Shown here one piece after another: positions 30,273 through 53,558 of a stretch of DNA of 64,000 nucleotides. Numbering within the stretch: position 1 is the stretch's first letter; the number at the start of each line of letters is the position of its first letter. Made by a program: the position numbers and the translations under genes. A model generated the notes under the pieces. That model ran no database searches and was not told the origin of the DNA. It worked only from the letters and a program-made list of their open reading frames with translations. Source of the DNA: Comamonas terrae (GTDB taxonomy: Bacteria > Pseudomonadota > Gammaproteobacteria > Burkholderiales > Burkholderiaceae_C); assembly GCF_001544075.1 (NCBI RefSeq), contig NZ_BCNT01000006.1:1-64000 (forward strand). Direction: 5' to 3'.

Positions 30273-31361
30273 ATGTCCACCACCTACCACATCGCAGTCC
30301 TCGCCGGCGACGGCATCGGCAAGGAAGTCATGCCCGAGGGCCTGCGCGCCCTGGAAGCCGCCAGCAAGCGCTTCGGCCTGGCGCTCGAATTCCACCATTT
30401 CGAATGGGCCAGCTGCGACTACTACGCCGCGCACGGCCAGATGATGCCGGACGACTGGAAGGCCCGGCTCTCGGGCATGGACGCCATCTTCTTCGGCGCC
30501 GTGGGCTGGCCGGCCACCGTGCCCGACCACGTCTCGCTGTGGGGGTCCCTCCTCAAGTTCCGCCGCGAGTTCGACCAGTACATCAACCTGCGCCCGGTGC
30601 GCCTGTTCGAGGGCGTGCCCTGCCCGCTGGCCGGCCGCAAGCCCGGCGACATAGACTACTACGTGGTGCGCGAGAACACCGAGGGCGAGTACACGTCGCT
30701 GGGCGGCATCATGTACGAGGGCACGGACCGCGAGATCGTGATCCAGGAGTCGGTCTACTCGCGCCACGGCGCCAACCGCCTGCTGAAGTACGCCTTCGAC
30801 CTGGCGCAGAGCCGCAGCAAGAAGCATGTGACCCTGGCCACCAAGAGCAACGGCATCGCCATCAGCATGCCCTGGTGGGACCAGCGCGCCGAGGAGGTCG
30901 CCAGGCAGTACCCCGAGGTCACGCTGGACAAGCAGCACATCGACATCCTGACCGCGCGCTTCGTGCTGCAGCCGGGCCGCTTCGACGTGGTGGCCGCCAC
31001 CAACCTGTTCGGCGACATCCTCTCCGACCTGGGCCCGGCCACCACCGGCACCATCGGCCTGGCGCCGTCGGCCAACCTGAACCCCGACCGAACCTTCCCC
31101 AGCCTGTTCGAGCCGGTGCACGGCTCGGCGCCCGACATCTACGGCAAGAACATCGCCAACCCGATCGCCATGGTCTGGTCGGGCGCGCTGCTGCTGGACT
31201 TCCTGACCCAGGGCCAGGGCGCCGGCCGCGCCGCGCACGACGCCATCGTGGCCGCCATCGAGGAGGTCATCAAGAGCGGCCCGCGCACGCCGGACCTGGG
31301 CGGCACGGCCAATACCACGCAGGTGGGCGAGGCGGTTGCGGCACTGATCGCCCGTGACTGA
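30273..31361 (+). CDS. dmlA: Tartrate dehydrogenase/decarboxylase, D-malate dehydrogenase
   Basis: A 362-residue beta-decarboxylating dehydrogenase of the isopropylmalate dehydrogenase fold. YHIAVLAGDGIGKEVMPEGLRAL opens it; YYVVRENTEGEYTSLGG, LTARFVLQPGRFDVVAATNLFGDILSDLGPA and EPVHGSAPDIYGKNIANP carry the Mg2+, NAD+ and substrate residues. It turns D-malate to pyruvate and also acts on tartrate. Length and motifs match TtuC/DmlA. A GGAAACC lies seven bases before the ATG. Confidence 0.93.
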   Translation: MSTTYHIAVLAGDGIGKEVMPEGLRALEAASKRFGLALEFHHFEWASCDYYAAHGQMMPDDWKARLSGMDAIFFGAVGWPATVPDHVSLWGSLLKFRREFDQYINLRPVRLFEGVPCPLAGRKPGDIDYYVVRENTEGEYTSLGGIMYEGTDREIVIQESVYSRHGANRLLKYAFDLAQSRSKKHVTLATKSNGIAISMPWWDQRAEEVARQYPEVTLDKQHIDILTARFVLQPGRFDVVAATNLFGDILSDLGPATTGTIGLAPSANLNPDRTFPSLFEPVHGSAPDIYGKNIANPIAMVWSGALLLDFLTQGQGAGRAAHDAIVAAIEEVIKSGPRTPDLGGTANTTQVGEAVAALIARD

Positions 31362-41223: not shown

Positions 41224-41540
41224 GTCGCTGCTCCTTCGGCCGCATTGGAAGCCGATTGTCCCGGAGCCGGTTCCTGCCGCCGGGCAGAAACCCTGACCCC
41301 GGCCAGCCTTCCCCTCCTGCATGCCGGACATGAAAACTCCGGCTTGGCCGGACGGGGCAAGGGAAAGCGGGAAACCCGGGAATTACCCGCTTGTGCAGCA
41401 AACGGATATTCCGGCGTTTTTCCCGCAGGCCAGTGCCTAAAATCCTCCGGCCCGCTTCTCCCTGGACACATGGAGCCGGGCATCTGCATGCACGCCACCC
41501 GTCCCGGGAAATCGCCGCATGCGCCAACGGATACGCAAAC
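41224..41540. other. Intergenic region upstream of the amidase gene
   Basis: About 317 bases between divergently transcribed genes. GCGGG...CCCGC arms near 41370-41391 could form a hairpin. I see no riboswitch, RNA gene or credible small ORF. Confidence 0.4.
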
Positions 41541-42824
41541 ATGACGCTTCACACCACCGGCCTCCCTCCACTGAACGCAGAGCGTCTGTGGCGCCGCATC
41601 GAGACACTTTCCACCTTCACGCTGCCTGATGCACCCTGGACCCGCCGGGCCTTCTCGCCGGAATTCGAACAGGCGCGCCGCTGGCTGGCCGAAGAATTCA
41701 GTAACGCCGGCATGGCGGTCCGCCTGGATGAGGGCGGCAACCTCGTGGGCCGCCTGCCCGCGGCAGCGGGCGCCGCACCGCGCGCGCCCATCGTCACGGG
41801 CTCGCACTGCGACACCGTGATGATGGGGGGCCGCTTCGACGGCATCATCGGCGTGCTGGCCGGCATCGAGGTCGCACACACGCTGCACGAGAACGGGATC
41901 GCGCTGCAGCACCCGTTCGAAGTGATCGATTTTCTTTCCGAGGAGCCCAGCGACTACGGCATCTCCTGCATAGGCAGCCGCGCCATTTCGGGCAAGCTGG
42001 GCCCGGACATGCTGGCCGCAACGAACCCGCAGGGCGAAACGCTGGCGCAGGGGATGCGCCGCATCGGCGCCAGGCCCGAAGCCCTGATCGGCCCGCTGCG
42101 CGGCAAGGGCAGCACGGCAGCCTTCGTGGAACTGCACATCGAGCAGGGCCCGGTGCTGGAGCGCAGCCAGCTGCCCATCGGCGTGGTCACCAACATCGTG
42201 GGCATACGCCGCGTCGCGTTCACCGTGCGCGGCCAGGCCGACCATGCGGGCACCACGCCCATGGACATCCGTCAGGACGCGCTGGCCGGTGCCGCCTGCA
42301 TCATCGGCGCAGCCAACCGCAAGGCCTGGGCGCTGGCCGGCCAACCGCACTATGTGGTGGCCACCGTGGGGCGCCTGTCGCTGACGCCCAACGCCTCCAA
42401 TGCCGTGCCCGGCCTGGTCGAGATGACGATGGAAGTGCGCAGCGACAACGCCGGCGTGCTGGCATCCTTTCCCGAGGAACTGTTTGCCGAGGTCCGGCCC
42501 GCGCTGGCCGGCCTGCGCGTGCAGGCCGACATGCATGAGGTAAGCCGTTCCCAGCCCACCGACTGCCAGGAACTGGTGATGCAGGGCATAGAGCAGGCCT
42601 GCAGGCAGCTTGGCTACGCCAGCATGCGCATGCCCAGCGGCGCAGGCCATGACGCCGTCTACATGGCGGCCACCGGCCCCATCGGCATGATCTTCATTCC
42701 CTGCCTGCAGGGACGCAGCCACGCACCGGAAGAATGGATAGAGCCCGCACAGCTGCTCGACGGCACCCGGGTGCTGTATCAGACGGTCCGCGTGCTGGAT
42801 GAACAGCTGGCCGCCCTGTCATGA
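41541..42824 (+). CDS. M20-family amidase: N-carbamoyl-L-amino-acid hydrolase or allantoate amidohydrolase
   Basis: A 427-residue Zn/Mn-dependent hydantoinase/carbamoylase family enzyme. Metal ligands lie in GSHCDTVMMGGRFDG (His, Asp), DFLSEEPSDYG (Glu), ELHIEQGPVLE (His) and GAGHDAVYMA (His). It releases ammonia and CO2 from N-carbamoyl amino acids, ureidoglycolate or allantoate; the sequence does not separate these. No other hydantoin or purine genes adjoin. Start from the family N-terminus at 41541; there is no strong binding site. Confidence 0.88.
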   Translation: MTLHTTGLPPLNAERLWRRIETLSTFTLPDAPWTRRAFSPEFEQARRWLAEEFSNAGMAVRLDEGGNLVGRLPAAAGAAPRAPIVTGSHCDTVMMGGRFDGIIGVLAGIEVAHTLHENGIALQHPFEVIDFLSEEPSDYGISCIGSRAISGKLGPDMLAATNPQGETLAQGMRRIGARPEALIGPLRGKGSTAAFVELHIEQGPVLERSQLPIGVVTNIVGIRRVAFTVRGQADHAGTTPMDIRQDALAGAACIIGAANRKAWALAGQPHYVVATVGRLSLTPNASNAVPGLVEMTMEVRSDNAGVLASFPEELFAEVRPALAGLRVQADMHEVSRSQPTDCQELVMQGIEQACRQLGYASMRMPSGAGHDAVYMAATGPIGMIFIPCLQGRSHAPEEWIEPAQLLDGTRVLYQTVRVLDEQLAALS

Positions 42825-44378: not shown

Positions 44379-45314
44379 TCAGCGAATGGAGCCACCCACG
44401 TCGCGCAGGCACTCCAGCAGCCCCTGGGTCACCGGCGTCATCGGCTGGCCGCGCAGCGTGATCAGGCCCACGGGCGGCAGCTCCACCGGCACCGTGAGCT
44501 TCAGCACCGCCAGCAGCCCCTGCTGCGCGAAGTGCCGCGCCACCGTGCGCGCCATGAAGGCCACGGCGCCGCGCTGGTGCAGGAAGCTGATCTGCGACAG
44601 GAACGAGGCCGACTCCACGATGTCGGCCGGCGGATGCAGGTCGTGGGCGAAAAACTGCTGCTCCAGTTTCACGCGCAGCGACGCCCAGGGCGGCGGCATC
44701 ACGCAGGGCTGGCCGGCAATGTCGGCCCAGCGCACCTGGCGCTTGCGCGCCAGCGGATGGCCGGCCTGCACCACGGCCACCATGGGGTCTTCGTACAGGG
44801 CCTCGGTTTCCAGGTCGGGCGCGGCATAGCCGGGCTCCAGCCGGCCCACGAACAGGTCCAGCTCGCCCAGGCGCAGCTTGGGCAGCAGACGCGTCAGGTC
44901 GCCCTCCTCGACCAGCACCGTGGTCTGGGCCGAGCGCGCCTTGAGCCGCTCCACCGCCGGGGCCAGCAGCACCGGCGTGGCCACGACCATGGCGCCCACG
45001 CTGGTGCGGCCGCGCGCGCCGCTGGCCTCGGCGGCGATCTCGTCGCGCGTGCGCTCGAAGCCCGCCAGCACCGAGCGCGCAAAGCGCACCAGGCTCACGC
45101 CGGCGGCCGTGGGCTCGGTGCCGCGCGGGCCGCGCTCGAACAGCGGCGTGTCCAGCATGCGCTCCACCTCGGCCAGGGTCTTGGAGACCGCCGGCTGCGT
45201 GACCGACAGGAACTCGGCCGCCCGGCCCACGTGGCGGAACTGGTCGAGCGCCACCAGCAGTTGCAGATGGCGAAGCTTGAGGTTGCTGCGCAGCACGCGG
45301 TCGATCTTGCTCAT
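44379..45314 (-). CDS. LysR-family regulator of the sugar-acid operon
   Basis: A 311-residue LysR protein: LRHLQLLVALDQFRHVGRAAEFLSVTQPAVSKTLAEVERML is the DNA-binding part, and RTSVGAMVVATPVLLAPAVERLKA opens the effector domain, as in GbpR/CbbR-like regulators next to Bug genes. The ATG at 45314 has GAGG five bases before it. The 180-bp gap to the divergent Bug gene holds ATTGT and ACAAT arms (45356-45381, spacer 16), a possible operator with the same half-site as the dmlR site. Confidence 0.88.
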   Translation of the reverse strand: MSKIDRVLRSNLKLRHLQLLVALDQFRHVGRAAEFLSVTQPAVSKTLAEVERMLDTPLFERGPRGTEPTAAGVSLVRFARSVLAGFERTRDEIAAEASGARGRTSVGAMVVATPVLLAPAVERLKARSAQTTVLVEEGDLTRLLPKLRLGELDLFVGRLEPGYAAPDLETEALYEDPMVAVVQAGHPLARKRQVRWADIAGQPCVMPPPWASLRVKLEQQFFAHDLHPPADIVESASFLSQISFLHQRGAVAFMARTVARHFAQQGLLAVLKLTVPVELPPVGLITLRGQPMTPVTQGLLECLRDVGGSIR

Positions 45315-45494
45315 CATTACCTCTTGGTTATGAAGACAGTCCACATTCTCATTGGATTGTCATGGCGCTATTTTGAACAATCGCGGCTGCACCACCAGGA
45401 ATCGGGCAATCCGGTTGTCGCAGGCCTTCCGCTTCCGGCGGCACCAGCCTTTGGCATCCACGGCCCCGGGCCTGAGAACAATACGGAGACACGC

Positions 45495-46481
45495 ATGCCC
45501 CTCGATCGCCCCAACCGCCGCGACTTTCTCTACACCACGCTGGGCGCCGCCGCGCTGGCGGCCGCCGGCCCGCTGCGGGCCCAGGCCTGGCCCGAGCGCC
45601 CCATCGTCTTCATCTGCCCCTGGCCCGCGGGCGGTACGGCCGACCAGTCGATGCGCGCGCTGTGCACCGTGGCCGGCAAGGTGCTGGGGCAGAGCATCGT
45701 GGTGGAGAACCGCGCCGGCGCCTCGGGCATGATCGGCGCCAAGGCGCTGGCCTCGGCCAAGGCCGACGGCTACACCATCGGCCAGATCCCGATCTCGGTC
45801 ACGCGCTTCGCGCAGCTGGGCATGCTGCAGGCGGATCCGCGCAAGGATTTCAGCTACATCGCCCGCACCTCGGGCCAGACCTTCGGCATCGCCGTGAAGG
45901 CCGACTCGCCGTTCAGGACGCTGCAGGACCTGGTCGATGCCGCCAAGGCCCGACCCGGCCAGGTGACCTATGCCCACGCCGGCGTGGGCGGCGCCACGCA
46001 CGTGGGCATGGAGGAATTCGCCGGCGCGGCCGGCATCCGCCTCAACCAGGTGCCCTACAAGGGCGGTGCCGAGGCGCTGGCGGGCGTGCTGGGCGGCCAT
46101 GTGGACGTGCTGGCCGACTCCAGCTCGTGGGCGCCGCATGTGCAGGCCGGCAAGCTGCGCCTGCTGGCCACCTGGGGCGAGCAGCGGCCGCCGCGCTTCA
46201 AGGACACGCCCACGCTCAAGGAGCTGGGCTACCACGTCGTCGTCGATGCGCCCAACGGCATCGGCGCCCCCAAGGGTGTGGACCCGGCCATCCTGGCCCA
46301 GCTGCGCGCAGCCTTCAGGCAGGCCGTGGCCAGCCCCGAGTTCAAGGCCGTGACCGACAAGATCGACGCGCCGGTGATGTACCTGGACGGCCCCGACTAC
46401 GAAAAATACGTGAACACGGTCTACCAGAAGGAGACCGTGCTGATCGACAAGCTCAAACTCCGTGAATTGATGAAGGGTTGA
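45495..46481 (+). CDS. Bug-type tripartite tricarboxylate receptor
   Basis: A 328-residue periplasmic receptor, first gene of the operon. Signal sequence with NRRDFLYTTLGAAALAAAG (twin arginine) ending near RAQA. Family blocks are PIVFICPWPAGGTADQSMRAL, VVENRAGASGMIGAKALA and YAHAGVGGATHVGMEEFAGAAG. GGAGACACGC precedes the ATG. It lies only two bases before the dehydratase ATG, so receptor and enzyme are made together; the ligand should be the operon's substrate, likely a sugar acid. Confidence 0.92.
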   Translation: MPLDRPNRRDFLYTTLGAAALAAAGPLRAQAWPERPIVFICPWPAGGTADQSMRALCTVAGKVLGQSIVVENRAGASGMIGAKALASAKADGYTIGQIPISVTRFAQLGMLQADPRKDFSYIARTSGQTFGIAVKADSPFRTLQDLVDAAKARPGQVTYAHAGVGGATHVGMEEFAGAAGIRLNQVPYKGGAEALAGVLGGHVDVLADSSSWAPHVQAGKLRLLATWGEQRPPRFKDTPTLKELGYHVVVDAPNGIGAPKGVDPAILAQLRAAFRQAVASPEFKAVTDKIDAPVMYLDGPDYEKYVNTVYQKETVLIDKLKLRELMKG

Positions 46482-46483
46482 CC

Positions 46484-48019
46484 ATGACCTCCAGCCCCCC
46501 CGCCAGCCCGCTGCTGCACCTGCACCCCAACGACAACGTCTTCGTCGCCAAGACCGCGCTGGCGCTGGGCCAGGAAATCCCCGGCCTGGGCGTGCGCACG
46601 CGCGCCCAGGTGCCGGCCGGCCACAAGATCGCCGCGCGCCGCATCGCCGCCGGCGAGCAGGTGAAGAAGTACGACACCGTGATCGGCGTGGCCACGCGCG
46701 AGCTGGAGCCCGGCGACTACGTGCACAGCCACAACCTGCAGCTGGTGGACTACTACCGCGACCCGGCCTTCGGCGCCGACGTGCGGCCGGTGAACTATGT
46801 GCCCGAAGAGCAGCGCGCCACCTTCCAGGGCTTTGTGCGCGCCGACGGCCGCGTGGGCACGCGCAACTTCATCGGCATCCTGTCGTCGGTGAACTGCTCG
46901 GCCACGGTGATCAAGAACATCGCCGCGCACTTCACGCCCGAGCGCCTGGCGGCCTTCCCGAACGTGGATGGCGTGGCCGCCTTCGCGCAGACCAGCGGCT
47001 GCGGCATGTCCTCGCCCAGCGAGCATTTCGACGTGCTGCGCCGCACGCTGGCCGGCTATGCGCGCCACCCCAACCTGGCGGGCGTGCTCATCGTGGGCCT
47101 GGGCTGCGAGCGCAACCAGGTCGATGGCCTGATGGAGTCGCAGGGCCTGCACGAAAGCCGGCTGCTGCGCAGCTTCGTGATGCAGGACGTGGGCGGCACG
47201 CGCGCCACCATCGCCGCCGGCATTGCCGCCATCGAGGAGATGCTGCCCATCGCCAACCAGGCACAGCGCAGCACGGTGAGCGCGAGCCACCTCAAGATCG
47301 GCCTGGAATGCGGCGGCTCGGACGGCTTCTCGGGCATCACGGCCAACCCGGCCCTGGGCGCGGCCATGGACATCCTGGTGCGCCACGGCGGCACGGCCAT
47401 CCTCAGCGAAACGCCCGAGATCCACGGCGTGGAGTTCATGCTCACGCGCCGCGCCATCAGCCCCGAGGTCGGCCAGAAGCTGCTCGACCGCCTGGCCTGG
47501 TGGGAAAAGTACACGGCCGGCCAGAACGCCCAGTTCAACGGCGTGGTGGGCCATGGCAACCAGGCCGGCGGCCTGGCCAACATCTTCGAGAAATCGCTGG
47601 GCTCGGCCATGAAGGGCGGCACCACGCCGCTGCGCGCGGTCTATGAATACGCCGAGCCCATCACCGAGAGCGGCTTCGTCTTCATGGACTCGCCGGGCTA
47701 CGACCCCGTGGCCTCCACCGGCCAGATTGCCAGCGGCGCCAACCTGATCTGCTTCACCACCGGGCGCGGCTCCATGTTCGGCAGCAAGCCCGCGCCCACC
47801 ATCAAGCTGGCCAGCAACACGCCCATGTACCAGCGCCTGTCCGAGGACATGGACATCAACTGCGGCCTGATCGTGGACGGCGAATGCACGGTGCCCGAGA
47901 TGGGCGAGCGCATCTTCGAGCAGATCCTGCGCCACGCCAGCGGCGAAGCCACCAAGAGCGAGCAGCTCGGCCTGGGCGACCACGAGTTCGTGCCCTGGCA
48001 CCTGGGCATCGTGAGCTGA
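46484..48019 (+). CDS. UxaA/GarD-family sugar-acid dehydratase
   Basis: A 511-residue altronate/galactarate dehydratase. It has the small N-terminal SAF domain (about 1-95; NDNVFVAKTALALGQEIPGLGVRTRAQVPAGHKIAARRI) and the large catalytic domain with GFVRADGRVGTRNFIGI, TSGCGMSSPSEHFDVLRRTL, LKIGLECGGSDGFSGITANP and MDINCGLIVDGECTV. UxaA removes water from D-altronate and GarD from D-galactarate; both need Fe2+ or Mn2+. A GAAGGG lies seven bases before the ATG. Which acid is used here is not readable. Confidence 0.9.
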   Translation: MTSSPPASPLLHLHPNDNVFVAKTALALGQEIPGLGVRTRAQVPAGHKIAARRIAAGEQVKKYDTVIGVATRELEPGDYVHSHNLQLVDYYRDPAFGADVRPVNYVPEEQRATFQGFVRADGRVGTRNFIGILSSVNCSATVIKNIAAHFTPERLAAFPNVDGVAAFAQTSGCGMSSPSEHFDVLRRTLAGYARHPNLAGVLIVGLGCERNQVDGLMESQGLHESRLLRSFVMQDVGGTRATIAAGIAAIEEMLPIANQAQRSTVSASHLKIGLECGGSDGFSGITANPALGAAMDILVRHGGTAILSETPEIHGVEFMLTRRAISPEVGQKLLDRLAWWEKYTAGQNAQFNGVVGHGNQAGGLANIFEKSLGSAMKGGTTPLRAVYEYAEPITESGFVFMDSPGYDPVASTGQIASGANLICFTTGRGSMFGSKPAPTIKLASNTPMYQRLSEDMDINCGLIVDGECTVPEMGERIFEQILRHASGEATKSEQLGLGDHEFVPWHLGIVS

Positions 48020-48024
48020 ACCAT

Positions 48025-48080
48025 CAAAAACAATAGCTGCTAGCGCTTTCTGCATAAGCCCTGGATGCCAATTTCATTCA
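48025..48080. repeat. Dispersed palindromic repeat, copy D
   Basis: AATAGCTGCTAGCGCTTTCTGCATAAGCCCTGGATGCCAATTTC has one good and one mutated arm. It fills the 66-bp gap between the dehydratase and aldehyde dehydrogenase genes, displacing any Shine-Dalgarno of the latter. Confidence 0.65.
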
Positions 48081-48085
48081 AAACC

Positions 48086-49564
48086 ATGCCCCTGACCCTC
48101 ACCCGCCCCGACCTGATCCGCAGCGCCAACTTCATCGCCGGCCAGTGGAGCGATGCGCCCGCCGCACCGGCTCCCCGTTTGGCCGTGACCGATCCGGCCA
48201 CCGGCGCCCTCATCACCGAAGTGCCGGATTCGGGCGCGCTTGAGGCGCGCGCCGCGCTGGATGCCGCCCATGCCGCATTTGCCGCGTGGCGCAAGGTTCC
48301 GGCCAAGCAGCGTGCCGCCATCATCAAGCGCTGGAACGACCTGGTCATCGCCCACCAGGATGACCTGGGCGCGCTGATCTCGCTGGAGCAGGGCAAGCCG
48401 CTGGCCGAAGGCAAGGGCGAGGTGGCCTACGCCGCCAGCTACATCGAATGGTTTGGCGAAGAGGCCACGCGCATGAACGGCGAGGTGATTCCCGCGCCCC
48501 TGCCGGGCCGGCGCATGTTCGCGCTCAAGGAGCCCGTGGGCGTGGTGGCCGCCATCACGCCCTGGAACTTTCCCGCCGCCATGATCGCGCGCAAGATCGC
48601 GCCCGCGCTGGCCGCCGGCTGCACCGTGGTCTGCAAGCCCGCCGAGGACACGCCGCTGACCTCGCTGGCCCTGGTGCTGCTGGCGCACGAGGCCGGCGTG
48701 CCGGCCGGCGTGCTCAACATCGTCACCGCCTCGCGCGAGAAGACGCCCGAGTTGGTGGACGTGTGGCTTCAGGATGCCCGCGTGCGCAAGATCACCTTCA
48801 CCGGCTCCACGCCCGTGGGCAAGCACCTGGCGCGCCGCAGCGCCGATACGCTCAAGAAGCTCTCGCTGGAGCTGGGCGGCAACGCGCCCTTCATCGTGTT
48901 CGACGACGCCGACATCGATGCCGCCGTCGACGGCTTCATGGCCGCCAAGTTCCGCAACGGCGGCCAGACCTGCGTCTGCCCCAACCGCGTGTTCGTGCAG
49001 CGCGGCGTGTTCGATGCGTTTGCGCACAAGCTCGCCGCGCGCGTGGCCGCGCTGCAGGTCGGCCCGGCCAGCGACCCGGCCTCGCAGATCGGCCCCATGA
49101 TCAATGCCCGCGCCGTCGAGAAGATAGAGCGCCACGTGCAGGACGCCGTGGCCAAGGGCGCCAAGGTCCTGGTCGGCGGCAAGCGCCTGGCCGAACTCGG
49201 CCCCCACTACTACGCACCCACCGTGCTCACCGGCGCCGACGCCCGCATGGCCTGCGCCTGCGAGGAGACCTTCGGTCCCGTGGCGCCGCTGACCGTCTTC
49301 GACGACGAGGCCGAGGTGCTGGCCGCCGCCAACGACACGCCCTTCGGCCTGGCCGCCTACTTCTACAGCCAGGACGTGCGCCGCATCTGGCGCGTGGCCG
49401 ACGCGCTGGAGACCGGCATCGTCGGCATCAACGAGGGCGCGCTCGCCGCCGAGGCCGCGCCCTTCGGCGGCGTCAAGGAATCCGGCTACGGCCGCGAAGG
49501 CTCGACGCACGGACTCGACGACTACCTGCACACCAAGTACGTCTGCCAGGGACAACTGGATTGA
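48086..49564 (+). CDS. NAD(P)-dependent aldehyde dehydrogenase, succinate/2-oxoglutarate-semialdehyde type
   Basis: A 492-residue ALDH of the GabD group. ITPWNFPAAMIARKIAPALAAGCTVVCKPAEDTP is the NAD(P) site, Glu262 (LELGGNAP) the base and Cys296 (GGQTCVCPN) the nucleophile. Relatives oxidise succinate semialdehyde or 2,5-dioxopentanoate, the latter being the last step of oxidative sugar-acid routes, which fits the operon. ATG 48086 is preferred; an ATG at 48065 lies within the repeat. Neither has a binding site. Confidence 0.92.
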   Translation: MPLTLTRPDLIRSANFIAGQWSDAPAAPAPRLAVTDPATGALITEVPDSGALEARAALDAAHAAFAAWRKVPAKQRAAIIKRWNDLVIAHQDDLGALISLEQGKPLAEGKGEVAYAASYIEWFGEEATRMNGEVIPAPLPGRRMFALKEPVGVVAAITPWNFPAAMIARKIAPALAAGCTVVCKPAEDTPLTSLALVLLAHEAGVPAGVLNIVTASREKTPELVDVWLQDARVRKITFTGSTPVGKHLARRSADTLKKLSLELGGNAPFIVFDDADIDAAVDGFMAAKFRNGGQTCVCPNRVFVQRGVFDAFAHKLAARVAALQVGPASDPASQIGPMINARAVEKIERHVQDAVAKGAKVLVGGKRLAELGPHYYAPTVLTGADARMACACEETFGPVAPLTVFDDEAEVLAAANDTPFGLAAYFYSQDVRRIWRVADALETGIVGINEGALAAEAAPFGGVKESGYGREGSTHGLDDYLHTKYVCQGQLD

Positions 49565-49607
49565 CGCCCCCCGGTCGCTAGAACCACACCACCACAGGAG
49601 ACAAACC

Positions 49608-50600
49608 ATGAGCCATTCCCGATCCCTCACCCGCAGGCCCGTGCTGGGCGCGCTGGCGGCACTGGCCCTGGCCGGCGCCGTGCCGCTGGCGCAGGCCCAG
49701 GGCCCGTTCCCCAGCAAGCCCATCACCTTCGTGGTGCCCTACCCCGCGGGCGGCGCCAACGACATGCTGGGGCGCCTGGTAGGCCAGAAAATGGGCGAGG
49801 TGCTGGGCACGGCAAGTGTCGTGGACAACCGGCCCGGCGCCGGGGCGCTGCTGGGCGCGGGCATCGTGGCGCGCGCACCGGCCGATGGCTACACGCTGCT
49901 GGTCGGCGGCCTGGCCACGCACGCCGCGAGCCCGCACCTCATCAAGGCCGAGTACGACCCGGTCAAGGACTTCGAGCCCATCGGCATGATCGGCAGCGCG
50001 CCCATCATCGCCATCACGGCCAACGACTCGCCCTACCAATCGCTCAAGGACGTGGTGGACGCGGCGCGCAAGGACCCGCAGGCGGTTATGTATGGCTCCT
50101 CCGGCAACGGCTCGCCGCTGCACCTGGCCGGCGAGCTGTTCGTCTCCATCGCCAAGGTCCAGATGACGCACGTGCCCTACAAGGGCGGCAACGCCCACAT
50201 CGTGGACCTGATCGGCGGCCGCGTGCCGGTCATCTTCGACACGGCCACCAATTCCATGCCGCTGCTGCGCGGCGGCAAGGTGCGCGCCCTGGCCGTGGGC
50301 GCGCCTGCCCGCCTGCCCGAACTGCCGAATGTGCCGACCTTTGCCGAGGCCGGCTACCCGCAGTTCAAGTTCTCGGCCTGGTATGCGCTGTTTGCGCCGG
50401 CCAGGACGCCCGCCGACGTGAGCGCCAAGCTCTCCGGCGCGCTGACCAAGGCCCTGAAGCAGCCCGAGGTGGCCTCCAAGCTGCGCGACCTGGGCGTGAC
50501 CCCGGGCAACGGCGATGCCGGCGAGCTGCGCGCCTTCATCCCTGGCGAATACCAGCGCGTCGGCGAGCTGATCAAGAGCGCCAAGATCAAGGCCGATTGA
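49608..50600 (+). CDS. Bug-type tripartite tricarboxylate receptor, second in the operon
   Basis: A 330-residue receptor with a signal peptide of LTRRPVLGALAALALAGAVPLAQAQ type. Blocks ITFVVPYPAGGANDMLGRLVG, VVDNRPGAGALLGAGIVA and YGSSGNGSPLHLAGELFVSIA are typical. GGAG lies 11 bases before the ATG. Sequence divergence from the first receptor of the operon suggests a different ligand, for example a conjugate and its product. Confidence 0.93.
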   Translation: MSHSRSLTRRPVLGALAALALAGAVPLAQAQGPFPSKPITFVVPYPAGGANDMLGRLVGQKMGEVLGTASVVDNRPGAGALLGAGIVARAPADGYTLLVGGLATHAASPHLIKAEYDPVKDFEPIGMIGSAPIIAITANDSPYQSLKDVVDAARKDPQAVMYGSSGNGSPLHLAGELFVSIAKVQMTHVPYKGGNAHIVDLIGGRVPVIFDTATNSMPLLRGGKVRALAVGAPARLPELPNVPTFAEAGYPQFKFSAWYALFAPARTPADVSAKLSGALTKALKQPEVASKLRDLGVTPGNGDAGELRAFIPGEYQRVGELIKSAKIKAD

Positions 50601-50610
50601 GGAGAAGCCC

Positions 50611-51765
50611 ATGCCCGATGGATTGCTGCGCCCCCACCCCGAAGACCCGGCCCGCCAGGTGGCCGACCTGCCCTCGCCGCGTGTGCAGGCCCATGCCGCC
50701 AACCTGATGGTGCTGGGCGACGGCGCCCTGGCCTGCGTATGGTTCGGCGGCTCGATGGAAGGCCGCTCCGACATCTCGGTCTTCCTGTCGCGGCTGGCCC
50801 CCGGCAGCGACCAATGGTCCGAGCCCGTGCAGCTGTCGCACGATGCCGAGCGCTCGGAGCAAAATCCCGTACTGTTTCCGGCCCCCGACGGCACGCTGTG
50901 GTTGCTGCACACGGCCCAGCACTCGGGCCACCAGGACACCTCGGTGGTGCGCCGGCGCCTGTCGCGCGACCACGGCCTGAGCTGGGAGCCCACCGAGACG
51001 CTGGCCGACGCGCCGGCCGGCACCTTCGTGCGCCAGCCCATCCTTGTCCATACCGACGGCAGCTGGCTGCTGCCGGTCTTCCACTGCCGCGCCCGGCCCG
51101 GCCAGGCCTGGGACGGCAGCCACGACGACAGCGGCGTGCTGCGTTCCACCGACCAGGGCGGCAGCTGGCAGCGCATCGCCGTGCCGAGCAGCCTGGGCTG
51201 CGTGCACATGAACATCGTTTCCGCGTCTGACGGCGGCCTGCTGGCGTTCTTCCGCAGCCGCTGGGCCGACCATGTCTACCGCAGCCGCAGCGACGACGGC
51301 GGCCTGAGCTGGCAGGCGCCCGAACCCACGGCCCTGCCCAACAACAACTCCTCCATCCAGGCGCTGCGCCTGGCCGACGGACGCCTGGCCATGATCTTCA
51401 ACGCCAGCAGCGCCGCCGATGCCACCGAACGGCGCGAGTCGCTGTATGACGAGCTGGGCGACGCCTCGGCAACACCTGCCAGCGCCGCGGCCGGCGAGCG
51501 CCGCGCGTTCTGGGGCGCGCCCCGTGCGCCCATGACGCTGGCGCTGTCGGCGGACGACGGCCTCACCTGGCCCTGGCAGCGCAACCTCGAGGTGGGCGAC
51601 GGCTGGTGCATGAGCAACGACTCCGAGCGCGGCCGCAACCGCGAGTACTCCTACCCCTCCATCCGCCAGGGCGCCGACGGCGCGCTGCACCTGGCCTATA
51701 CCGTGTTCCGCCAGCACATCCGCCATGTGCGCGTGCAGCCGGACTGGGTGACCCAACAAGCATGA
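50611..51765 (+). CDS. Sialidase-fold (BNR/Asp-box) six-bladed propeller protein, cytoplasmic
   Basis: A 384-residue BNR_2-type protein with four Asp boxes: SRDHGLSW (118-125), STDQGGSW (179-186), SDDGGLSW (227-234) and SADDGLTW (313-320). No signal peptide is present, so unlike secreted sialidases it acts on something already imported. Arg residues are plentiful, but I cannot assign the sialidase Arg triad. The gene starts ten bases after the receptor and its stop overlaps the dehydrogenase ATG, so it belongs to the sugar-acid operon. It may release or rearrange a sugar acid; sialic acid itself is unlikely, as no nan genes are near. Confidence 0.75.
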   Translation: MPDGLLRPHPEDPARQVADLPSPRVQAHAANLMVLGDGALACVWFGGSMEGRSDISVFLSRLAPGSDQWSEPVQLSHDAERSEQNPVLFPAPDGTLWLLHTAQHSGHQDTSVVRRRLSRDHGLSWEPTETLADAPAGTFVRQPILVHTDGSWLLPVFHCRARPGQAWDGSHDDSGVLRSTDQGGSWQRIAVPSSLGCVHMNIVSASDGGLLAFFRSRWADHVYRSRSDDGGLSWQAPEPTALPNNNSSIQALRLADGRLAMIFNASSAADATERRESLYDELGDASATPASAAAGERRAFWGAPRAPMTLALSADDGLTWPWQRNLEVGDGWCMSNDSERGRNREYSYPSIRQGADGALHLAYTVFRQHIRHVRVQPDWVTQQA

Positions 51766-52736
51766 CCGCCACACATACTCCATTCAATGTTCTTGTCACC
51801 GCCGAGCACTGGGCGCCCGAGGCCCAGGCCCTGGTGCAGGCCGCCGGCGGGCAGATCCACTTCATGGCCGAGCCCGTCACCGAGGCCAGCCTGGCCGGGC
51901 GGCTGGCGCAGACCGGCGCCCAGGCCCTGGTGCTGCGCGGCTCCAAGCCCGTGACGGCCGCCGTGCTGCGCGCGGCGCCGGCACTGCGCATCGTCGCCAA
52001 GAACGGCGCCGGCGTGGACAGCGTGGACCTCGAAGCCGCCCGCGCGCAAGGCGTGGCCGTGGCCGTGGCGCTGGCCGCCAATGCCCCGGCCGTGGCCGAG
52101 CATGCGCTGGCGCTGATGCTGGCCCTGGTGCGCCAGCTGCCGCAGCTGGACCGGCAGGTGCGCGCCGGCGGCTGGGACGGCAACTGGCCCGGCAGCCACT
52201 GGCAGGGGCGCGACTTTCGCGGCTCCACCGTGGGCATCGTGGGCTATGGCGCCATAGGCCGCGCCACCGCACAGCTGGCCGCGGCCCTGGGCGCCCGGGT
52301 GCTGGTGCTGCGCCCCGCGAGCCAGGCCGACGGCTTTGGCTGCGAGCCCGATCTGCACCGGCTGCTGCCCCAGGTGGACATACTGAGCCTGCACTGCCCT
52401 TTGAGCGAGCGCACGCGCGGACTGATCGGCGGGCCCGAGCTGGCGCTGCTGCGCCCCGGCAGCCTGCTGATCAATACCGCGCGCGGCCCGGTCGTCGATG
52501 AGGCCGCGCTGCTGGCGGCACTGCAAAGCGGCCACCTGGCCGGCGCCGGCCTCGACACCTTCGACACCGAGCCGCTGCCCCAAGGCCACCCGCTCACCCG
52601 CCTGCCCCAGGTGCTGCTGACCCCGCATGTGGCCGGCGTCACGCGCCAGGCCGCGCTGCGCGTGGCCACCCTCACCGCCGCCAACATCGTCGACCACCTC
52701 GCGGGCCGGCCCCTGCCCGCCGGCCATCTGCTCTGA
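51762..52736 (+). CDS. D-isomer-specific 2-hydroxyacid dehydrogenase
   Basis: A 324-residue NAD(P)-dependent dehydrogenase. Nucleotide site GIVGYGAIGRATA (158-170); catalytic Arg241 (NTARGPVVDE), Glu270 (FDTEPLP) and His289 (LTPHVAG). It interconverts a 2-oxo and a D-2-hydroxy acid. Inside this operon it could reduce hydroxypyruvate or tartronate semialdehyde-derived products, or oxidise the starting hydroxy acid. Its ATG overlaps the propeller gene's stop (ATGA). Confidence 0.92.
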   Translation: MTATHTPFNVLVTAEHWAPEAQALVQAAGGQIHFMAEPVTEASLAGRLAQTGAQALVLRGSKPVTAAVLRAAPALRIVAKNGAGVDSVDLEAARAQGVAVAVALAANAPAVAEHALALMLALVRQLPQLDRQVRAGGWDGNWPGSHWQGRDFRGSTVGIVGYGAIGRATAQLAAALGARVLVLRPASQADGFGCEPDLHRLLPQVDILSLHCPLSERTRGLIGGPELALLRPGSLLINTARGPVVDEAALLAALQSGHLAGAGLDTFDTEPLPQGHPLTRLPQVLLTPHVAGVTRQAALRVATLTAANIVDHLAGRPLPAGHLL

Positions 52737-52754
52737 CCCTTTCTCCATCGCCCC

Positions 52755-53558
52755 ATGCCCGCCCACAACCCATTCAAGACCGCCCTGGCCGCAGGCCAGC
52801 CCCGCATCGGCCTGTGGCTGTCCATGGCCGACCCCTACCTGGCCGAGGCCGCCGCCACCTGTGGCTACGACTGGCTGCTGATCGATGGCGAACACGCCCC
52901 CAACGACCTGCGCAGCACGCTGGCCGCGCTGCAGGCCGTGGCGCCCCACCCCGGCCAGCCCGTGGTGCGCGTGGTGGAGGACAATACGGCCCTCATCAAG
53001 CAAATGCTGGACATTGGCGCGAAAACGCTGCTCGTGCCCATGGTCGATACGCCGGAACAAGCCAGCGCCATCGTGGCCGCCACGCAGTACCCGCCCCGGG
53101 GCGTGCGCGGCGTGGGCAGCGCCGTGGGGCGCGCCTCGCAGTGGAGCAGCCGCGCCGACTACCTGCAGGTCGCCGACGACGAAATCTGCCTGCTGGTGCA
53201 GGCCGAGACCACCACCGCACTGGCCAACCTCGACGCCATCTGCGCTGTGGACGGCGTGCACGGCGTCTTCATCGGCCCGGCCGACCTGGCGGCCTCGATG
53301 GGCCACCGCGGCAACCCCGGCCACCCCGAGGTGCAGGCGGCCATCGAAGGCGCGATGAAGACCATCATCGCAAGCGGCAAGGCCGCCGGCACGCTGACCT
53401 CGGACCCGGCGCTGGCGCAGCGCTACCTGGACCTGGGCTGCACCTTCGTGGCCGTGGGCGTGGATGTGCTGATGTTCGTGAACGCGGCGCGCAGGCTGCG
53501 CACGCAGTTCGGCGGCACGCCGGCCATGGCGCCCGGCGCCCCCGGAGCGGCCTACTGA
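52755..53558 (+). CDS. HpcH/HpaI-family (GarL-like) class II aldolase
   Basis: A 267-residue pyruvate aldolase. Catalytic His47 ([11 protein letters not shown]), Arg72, and metal ligands Glu151 (VQAETTTAL) and Asp177 ([10 protein letters not shown]) are in place, as is [16 protein letters not shown]. Members split 2-oxo-4-hydroxy acids into pyruvate and an aldehyde; GarL uses 2-dehydro-3-deoxyglucarate made by GarD-type dehydratases, matching the second gene of the operon. It is the last gene, 18 bp after the dehydrogenase. Confidence 0.92.

Follow-up and report, generated by a model that had tools for sequence, protein, structure and literature searches.

A sugar-acid operon of Comamonas terrae (contig NZ_BCNT01000006.1) contains a four-Asp-box propeller and two solute receptors, which raises the question of what the propeller does there and why a second receptor is present. 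The window is the whole stretch of 64,000 nucleotides that was analysed.

Gene content of the operon

The families at 45495–53558 were all confirmed by Pfam profiles (TctC twice, UxaA/GarD, Aldedh, BNR_2, 2-Hacid_dh, HpcH_HpaI and LysR), in the order LysR (divergent) / TctC1-UxaA-ALDH-TctC2-propeller-2HADH-HpaI (Table 1). The operon content, the two receptors and the four-Asp-box propeller described in a first-pass annotation were borne out by Pfam and NCBIfam profiles and by motif positions. The order from LysR to HpaI was kept in five other genomes of the same genus, with 80–94% identity. The ALDH start was corrected to 48086, and that of UxaA is 46484 (ATG) or 46478 (TTG); an ATGA overlap at 51762–51765 joins the propeller stop to the 2HADH start.

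Table 1. Features of the operon and of one gene outside it, with positions in the window.
Feature	Position	Strand	Profile and remarks
LysR regulator	44379..45344	−	PF03466/PF00126; divergent; core module A
TctC1 solute receptor	45495..46481	+	PF03401; module A
UxaA/GarD-superfamily sugar-acid dehydratase	46484..48022	+	PF08666 + PF04295 + PF20629; module A
SSADH-type aldehyde dehydrogenase (ALDH)	48086..49564	+	TIGR01780; module A
TctC2 solute receptor	49608..50600	+	PF03401; module B
BNR_2 propeller, four Asp-boxes, probably cytosolic	50611..51765	+	PF13088; module B
D-2-hydroxyacid dehydrogenase (2HADH)	51762..52736	+	PF02826/PF00389; module B
HpaI-type aldolase	52755..53558	+	TIGR02311; module A
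Inserted block = module B	49565..52754	+	3190 bases, ALDH stop to HpaI start
Tartrate/D-malate dehydrogenase homologue (TTC)	30282..31343	+	TIGR02089; 19 kb upstream, outside operon

The HpaI aldolase passed the equivalog model TIGR02311 (4-hydroxy-2-oxoheptanedioate aldolase; 376 versus 368.8), and the ALDH, which carries the motifs LELGGN and GGQTC, passed the subfamily model TIGR01780 (succinate-semialdehyde dehydrogenase; 662.4 versus 646.35). Going by family name, the first would cleave a C7 diacid and the second would oxidise a C4 semialdehyde; the HpaI reaction yields succinate semialdehyde. The dehydratase was assigned to the UxaA/GarD superfamily by its domains and four cysteines (Cys138, Cys173, Cys208 and Cys276), and it scored far under the galactarate dehydratase GarD equivalog TIGR03248 (365 versus 730.85). 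Conservation of Cys134/173/208/276 across this superfamily has been described (PMC6336799, excerpt). The TTC homologue passed TIGR02089 (519.5 versus 470.4), and it is a possible downstream enzyme.

Two modules in one operon

A TctC1-UxaA-ALDH-HpaI operon without propeller was found in four genomes (G006, G138, G367 and G587). In these genomes the ALDH stop and the HpaI start were separated by a 4-base overlap to 53 bases, versus 3190 bases in the window, where TctC2, the propeller and 2HADH sit exactly between the two genes; this module B is absent from all four. The operon is chimeric, with a receptor, propeller and 2HADH module placed inside a sugar-acid operon.

LysR was a 64–85% identical neighbour of UxaA in G006, G320, G138, G367 and G587, and TctC1 was a 70–84% identical one in the same genomes and in G109. 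The UxaA of the window was 91% identical to that of G006, whose locus has no propeller. Relatives of TctC2 with at least 70% identity occurred in 4 of 349 genomes (the window's own counted), within 1.2 kb of a propeller in 4/4. Each receptor thus has its own partner, the dehydratase for TctC1 and the propeller for TctC2, and this accounts for there being two. The arrangement suggests how acquisition of a receptor-plus-opener module can add a second entry to an operon.

One genome of the window type (G759, locus L027) had no HpaI at the locus, an observation that counts against a model with a shared HpaI.

Genes beside the propeller in other genomes

The propeller family was widespread, with at least 559 confirmed stretches among 597 pattern matches. 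The context survey covered the best 80 of these loci, a sample that leans to close relatives; the loci do not count as independent observations (L047/L048 and L092/L102 may be duplicate pairs, G017 is L026), and Fisher values calculated from them disregard kinship. A family sample of 10 loci had seven already among the 80 (G647, G676, G759, G785, G810, G861 and G928) and three outside (G692, G787 and G800). The phylum sample (398 genomes, chosen regardless of context) gave 10 close propeller orthologues besides that of the window, none among the 80, and 9/10 were located beside PdxA, Fe-ADH and DHDPS.

Within the best 80 of at least 559 loci, an aldolase-family gene was found near the propeller in 64, as DHDPS in 48, HpaI in 16 and both in none, counts that vary slightly with threshold (e.g. 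48–49 for DHDPS). DHDPS and HpaI, two unrelated aldolase families, are mutually exclusive beside the propeller in these loci. Neither was found in the other 16 of the 80, some of them cut by contig ends and one (L082) having a partial DHDPS match. Further neighbours in the same best 80 of at least 559 loci were SDR (63), PdxA (61), Fe-ADH (57), DUF1537 (54), the YhcH family of sialate-anomerase homologues (29), the TIGR02089 tartrate dehydrogenase TTC (8) and UxaA (only 3). The first-pass annotation had called for such a survey of co-occurrence with dehydratase or aldolase genes; the link held for the aldolase families and failed for the dehydratase. Its statement that the propeller is foreign to the galactarate and altronate pathways is supported, and a pathway of this kind in which the propeller is indispensable was rejected on the UxaA count and on the propeller-free operon.

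UxaA was also present near 2/7 distant propellers (L154 and L157), which was taken as coincidence because several kb of DNA carrying unrelated genes separate the two. Loci of Pantoea and Bradyrhizobium consisted of transporter, propeller and SDR only; these aldolase-free loci count against a propeller-aldolase model. The Bradyrhizobium cassette adds an enolase-superfamily enzyme, for which D-tartrate dehydratase was rejected as identity, its nearest matches being 2ovl and a 3,6-anhydrogalactonate cycloisomerase.

NCBIfam scans of partner genes covered L012, L015, L019, L030, L046, L067 and L083 only. The Fe-ADH of L015 and L019 was nearest to the model of 4-hydroxybutyrate dehydrogenase, an enzyme of C4 semialdehydes, and scored below its equivalog cut-off. 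The DUF1537 kinase was nearest to D-threonate kinase NF047819 but under its cut-off (115.9 in L015 and 96.2 in L019 versus 450). PdxA was under the cut-off of D-threonate dehydrogenase NF002891 (334.5 and 304 versus 583) and passed the general pdxA model (365.7 and 342.9 versus 290.35); the D-threonate-4-phosphate dehydrogenase model ranked third in L015 and second in L019. This better match of PdxA to the general model counts against a tetronate reading.

In the same two loci the DHDPS-family protein was nearest to DapA, not to a sugar-acid aldolase model, just under the equivalog TIGR00674 (190.1 and 198.3 versus 206.15), and under the N-acetylneuraminate lyase cut-off (135.3 and 116.1 versus 281). 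The nearness to DapA weighs against the proposed pathway. The protein may nevertheless serve as an aldolase, because it occupies the same slot as HpaI. The YhcH protein of L012 was nearest to N-acetylneuraminate anomerase NF040884, below the equivalog cut-off (90.3 versus 160), and passed the subfamily model TIGR00022 (82.6 versus 45.5). No match to the DUF1537 kinase family (PF07005) was found in the genome that holds the window, and the host would therefore seem to lack the tetronate exit.

The propeller protein

The propeller matched BNR_2 (PF13088) with 220.7 bits versus a gathering cut-off of 31.4, and exactly four Asp-boxes were located at residues 118, 179, 227 and 313. Inspection of its N-terminus (MPDGLLRPHPEDPARQ...) by eye revealed no signal peptide, as had been proposed, and there was no sign of secretion; by the same inspection the N-termini of TctC1 and TctC2 were both signal-like. 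A crude hydropathy scan gave 1.67 for the window propeller, 1.43 for TctC1, 2.13 for TctC2 and 0.71–1.25 for ten propeller relatives. By its N-terminus as read by eye, the propeller is probably cytosolic.

The RIP motif of GH33 exo-sialidases carries the first catalytic-site Arg. This motif ([FYRVA]RIP, first 60 residues) was found in 0/13 and 0/31 aligned propeller rows, in line with the earlier doubt that the protein is an ordinary sialidase. The label 'exo-alpha-sialidase', which stands on many records of the family in plasmid listings, is probably wrong. Invariant in the 13 and 31 rows were Arg116, Arg141, Arg215, Arg217, Arg274, Arg275, Arg305 and Arg367 together with His28, Glu50, Asp54, Glu83, His199, Glu345 and Tyr348, a set of Arg, acidic, His and Tyr residues that fits an anionic substrate.

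Proposed pathway and alternatives

We infer every reaction and substrate below, and the role of the 2HADH or SDR, with gene linkage, insertion and aldolase mutual exclusion as the observed starting points. With a probability of about 0.5, the operon is a two-entry funnel in which the propeller makes a 3-deoxy-2-keto acid and both branches lead to the shared HpaI aldolase, giving pyruvate and an aldehyde. In the first branch, TctC1 would import an aldonic or aldaric acid, which UxaA would dehydrate to a 2-keto-3-deoxy acid. In the second (TctC2, propeller and 2HADH), another imported compound would be opened or deconjugated by the propeller in the cytosol to a 3-deoxy-2-keto sugar acid. The SSADH-type ALDH would oxidise the aldehyde from HpaI, making the host exit oxidative. 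In the relatives, the propeller would feed a DHDPS- or HpaI-type aldolase producing pyruvate and a C4 semialdehyde, the latter being reduced by Fe-ADH or an aldo-keto reductase to a tetronate, which would be phosphorylated (DUF1537) and converted to DHAP by oxidative decarboxylation (PdxA).

The putative products, a C4 acid and pyruvate, point to a C7 diacid. Dha, a seven-carbon analogue of sialic acid in pectin RG-II, is tentatively proposed as the best-fitting substrate. The earlier suggestion of a sugar acid, cyclic or conjugated, as propeller substrate is supported as a possibility; lactonase, lyase and glycosidase are candidate activities. A large conjugate is less likely, since the transporters (SSS, TctC) are of small-acid types. 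It is conceivable, though doubtful, that an intracellular Dha pathway is common to many plant-associated proteobacteria and to some actinobacteria. A cytosolic sialidase-fold hydrolase would be its entry, and it would lead to DHAP via D-threonate or, in Comamonas, to C4 diacids by an oxidative route taken over from a different operon. If true, this would offer both candidate genes and a substrate hypothesis for what soil and plant bacteria do with a very rare pectin sugar. A literature search of open-licence papers found neither an intracellular Dha pathway nor a described counterpart of the propeller cassette gene set.

The frequent SDR neighbour (63 of the best 80 of at least 559 loci) and the minimal transporter-propeller-SDR set would also agree with a dehydrogenase-lactonase pair, in which the SDR, or 2HADH in the window, would convert a sugar to its lactone by oxidation, leaving the propeller to open that lactone and release an acid for degradation. 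Dehydrogenase followed by lactonase is a known combination (PMC10079672, excerpt). However, with UxaA near only 3 of the best 80 the acid would need another dehydratase to reach the aldolase, and L050, L070 and L090 have a propeller without SDR, so that this pair is unlikely. To our knowledge, moreover, 2-HADH enzymes are not sugar 1-dehydrogenases. The earlier view of one linear route, with the propeller followed by UxaA, HpaI and ALDH on a single substrate, draws on the closeness of the seven genes on one strand, the ATGA overlap and the order kept in the five further genomes of the genus. But UxaA-ALDH-HpaI occurs alone elsewhere, UxaA is rare beside propellers (3/80) and each receptor has its own partner; this route is considered improbable.

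A further possibility is that UxaA acts after ALDH in the propeller branch, ALDH producing D-tartrate and UxaA dehydrating it to oxaloacetate. D-threonate, D-tartrate and D-altronate have been grouped by their shared (2S,3R) carbons (PMC10079672, excerpt), Dha would yield a D-threo C4 unit by our own Fischer derivation, and TTC genes were found in 8 of the best 80 of at least 559 loci. This reading was demoted to very improbable once the propeller-free operon was found, because the close similarity to the UxaA of G006 implies that its function is probably set by the first branch; in addition, section 8 of PMC10079672 reports significant D-threonate activity for two AraD enzymes only, not for E. 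coli UxaA. An ordinary sialidase acting on host or environmental sialic acids is suggested by BNR_2 membership and by the plasmid labels. It was rejected as scarcely credible on motif and partner genes: the RIP motif and, by eye, the signal peptide are missing, the DHDPS partner is under the N-acetylneuraminate lyase cut-off in L015 and L019, and the partners in the best 80 of at least 559 loci are of tetronate type instead.

Comparison with known systems

The UxaA/GarD superfamily serves non-phosphorylative sugar-acid pathways, of D-arabinonate and others (PMC6336799, excerpt). Module A resembles these in its dehydratase of the same superfamily with four cysteines, but combines this with an HpaI aldolase and an SSADH-like dehydrogenase. 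The D-threonate pathway uses a DUF1537 kinase and PdxA2. Both families were common near the propeller (54 and 61 of the best 80 of at least 559 loci), and D-threonate kinase was the best kinase model; however, scores in L015 and L019 lay below every D-threonate cut-off, and the kinase family is without a match in the window's genome.

The GH143 Dha hydrolase has a propeller-type domain. The propeller profile matched its structure 5mqr weakly (hmmsearch E 0.078, profile positions 229–274 only), and unlike the propeller, GH143 belongs to an RG-II-degrading enzyme with two modules. The enzyme of Bacteroides thetaiotaomicron acts on Dha, a C7 sialic acid analogue (PMC6811678, excerpt).

Nan-type sialic acid catabolism combines a transporter, a sialidase-like protein, a NanA-like aldolase and a YhcH anomerase. 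The propeller cassettes differ in scores below the NanA (L015, L019) and anomerase (L012) cut-offs, in downstream genes of the C4-acid kind, and in a propeller with no RIP motif and, by eye, no signal peptide; yet many relatives likewise carry the propeller, a DHDPS-family protein, a YhcH-family protein and an SSS transporter together.

The operon is chimeric

Gene calls and profile scans placed the seven operon genes and the divergent LysR gene where the first-pass annotation had put them, with the families it had named. The propeller is a BNR_2 protein of 384 residues; exactly four Asp-boxes were counted, as had been claimed, and the claimed lack of a signal peptide agreed with the N-terminus, read by eye only. 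An ATGA overlap joins its gene to that of the 2-hydroxyacid dehydrogenase (2HADH). Scores above the cut-off were obtained for the aldolase with the HpaI model and for the aldehyde dehydrogenase (ALDH) with the SSADH model. By profile score the dehydratase (UxaA) did not reach the GarD model, but it has the four cysteines conserved across the UxaA/GarD superfamily (PMC6336799). The window's whole genome encodes one BNR_2 protein, two GD_AH_C proteins and two TctA permeases, both outside the window.

With the dehydratase as query over 200 genomes of the order, 62 matched at E 1e-80 or better, and 12 of the loci found were compared for gene order. LysR-TctC1-UxaA-ALDH-HpaI without propeller was found in genomes G006 (same genus), G138, G367 and G587; in G320 the propeller-free set runs from LysR to ALDH, where the contig ends, and G109 has TctC1-UxaA alone. 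The remaining 6 loci had UxaA without the rest of the set. No propeller match was found genome-wide in G006, G138, G320 and G367, or within the 18 kb stretch examined in G587. The ALDH stop and HpaI start are separated by 30 bases in G006, 53 in G367 and 37 in G587, and overlap by 4 bases in G138; in the window they are 3190 bases apart, with TctC2, propeller and 2HADH in between. The operon is thus chimeric, these three genes being set into another operon. Five further same-genus genomes have the insert-bearing arrangement.

Each receptor has its own partners, TctC1 with UxaA and TctC2 with the propeller. UxaA was accompanied by a 70–84% identical TctC1 in G006, G320, G138, G367, G587 and G109. 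A TctC2 relative of at least 70% occurred in 4 of 349 family genomes, the window's included, with the propeller at most 1.2 kb away in all four, either adjacent or separated by PdxA; none of the seven remaining propeller genomes in the family sample carried such a relative. TctC2 relatives of 54–62% (10 genomes) did not show this linkage: no propeller was matched in nine of the genomes, and G692 carries relative and propeller on separate contigs. Nevertheless, a relative of 59–62% does sit inside the propeller cassette at loci L036, L045 and L072. The inserted module seems to stem from the order TctC2-PdxA-propeller-FeADH-HpaI, which is kept in Curvibacter and Caldimonas cassettes (L032, L033, L035).

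Neighbours of the propeller family

A propeller relative was found in 314 of 72,556 plasmid records. Among the best 80 of at least 559 confirmed stretches in the genome collection, DHDPS-family genes were present in 48, HpaI in 16, both in none and neither in 16; PdxA was found in 61, Fe-ADH in 57, DUF1537 kinase in 54, SDR in 63, SSS transporter in 47, YhcH in 29 and UxaA in only 3. Six actinobacterial loci had an aldo-keto reductase and no Fe-ADH. The 10 family-sample loci (7 genomes shared with the best 80) had one aldolase family in 9 and both in none, PdxA, Fe-ADH and DUF1537 in 8, and SDR in 9. The phylum sample (398 genomes) held 10 close orthologues besides the window's, with PdxA, Fe-ADH and DHDPS adjoining 9 and a DUF1537 match in 7. 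The tenth is of the Bradyrhizobium type; such cassettes (L099, L100, L104, L145) have no aldolase match nearby but encode an enzyme of the enolase superfamily whose nearest matches are 2ovl and a 3,6-anhydrogalactonate cycloisomerase. At 7 loci of distant BNR_2 proteins PdxA, Fe-ADH and DHDPS were absent, and UxaA lay several kb away in 2. By eye, a membrane-like protein of 184–204 residues adjoins the distant propellers of L154, L157 and L158, and in L154 and L157 also a 573-residue, glycosyltransferase-like membrane protein.

Coordinates of additional features
Feature	Location	Strand	Remark
Tartrate/D-malate dehydrogenase homologue	window 30282-31343	+	TIGR02089, above cut-off
Second copy of the same	G000:C6:279902-280957		
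ErtE (N-carbamyl-L-glutamate amidohydrolase) homologue	window 41391-42821	+	637.7 bits, cut-off 520; may be part of a separate catabolic cluster upstream
Distant BNR_2 propeller	L154 7736-8971		membrane-like N-terminal stretch (by eye)
Distant BNR_2 propeller	L157 7701-8960		as L154
Distant BNR_2 propeller	L158 7777-9003		as L154

Proposed chemistry

That two unrelated aldolase families fill one slot and never occur together suggests a retro-aldol step in propeller cassettes, which would give pyruvate. However, the DHDPS-family protein taken alone was nearest DapA, just under its cut-off, which counts against a sugar-acid aldolase role, and minimal transporter-propeller-SDR cassettes, with no aldolase nearby, count against the model. 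In two cassettes scanned, the reductase was nearest 4-hydroxybutyrate dehydrogenase and the kinase nearest D-threonate kinase, beside a PdxA-family protein; judged from these likenesses, the second product is suggested to be a C4 semialdehyde acid made into a tetronate. D-threonate cut-offs were reached in neither cassette and the PdxA-family protein passed the general pdxA model, both of which count against the model.

Together, pyruvate and a C4 semialdehyde acid make up a C7 3-deoxy-2-ketodiacid, and this describes Dha of RG-II (named in PMC12168206), termed a seven-carbon sialic acid analogue in PMC6811678. By our own Fischer derivation Dha would give a D-threo C4 unit, so reduction would yield D-threonate and oxidation D-tartrate; D-threonate, D-tartrate and D-altronate are substrates grouped by their (2S,3R) carbons in PMC10079672. 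Of the best 80 loci, 8 had a tartrate dehydrogenase near the propeller, as did 2 of the 10 in the family sample, each from one of the same 8 genomes; the figures were 0/10 for phylum-sample, 0/7 for distant-propeller and 1/12 for dehydratase loci. A YhcH homologue (L012) was nearest sialate anomerase, below its cut-off. In Azospirillum the propeller and SDR genes are separated by one of the FAH family (5 of the best 80 loci); PMC6336799 describes 2-keto-3-deoxy acids as substrates of a dehydrogenase and of an FAH-family hydrolase. The transporters, being for small acids, speak against long conjugates as substrates of the propeller.

The DUF1537 kinase family has no match anywhere in the genome of the window. 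There the propeller module sits instead in an operon that contributes HpaI and an SSADH-type ALDH, so the C4 semialdehyde from the propeller branch would be oxidised by this ALDH, not reduced. Most simply, UxaA would catalyse the initial step in the other branch. The window-type operon of G759 (L027/L229), with HpaI absent at the locus after 2HADH, counts against this two-branch model.

Comparison with solved structures

Among solved structures, the propeller best matched NanC and sialidase B, with only short stretches aligned. In the sialidase B alignment, propeller Glu50 is opposite the Asp of the GGTHDSKS stretch, which we take to be the acid-base region.
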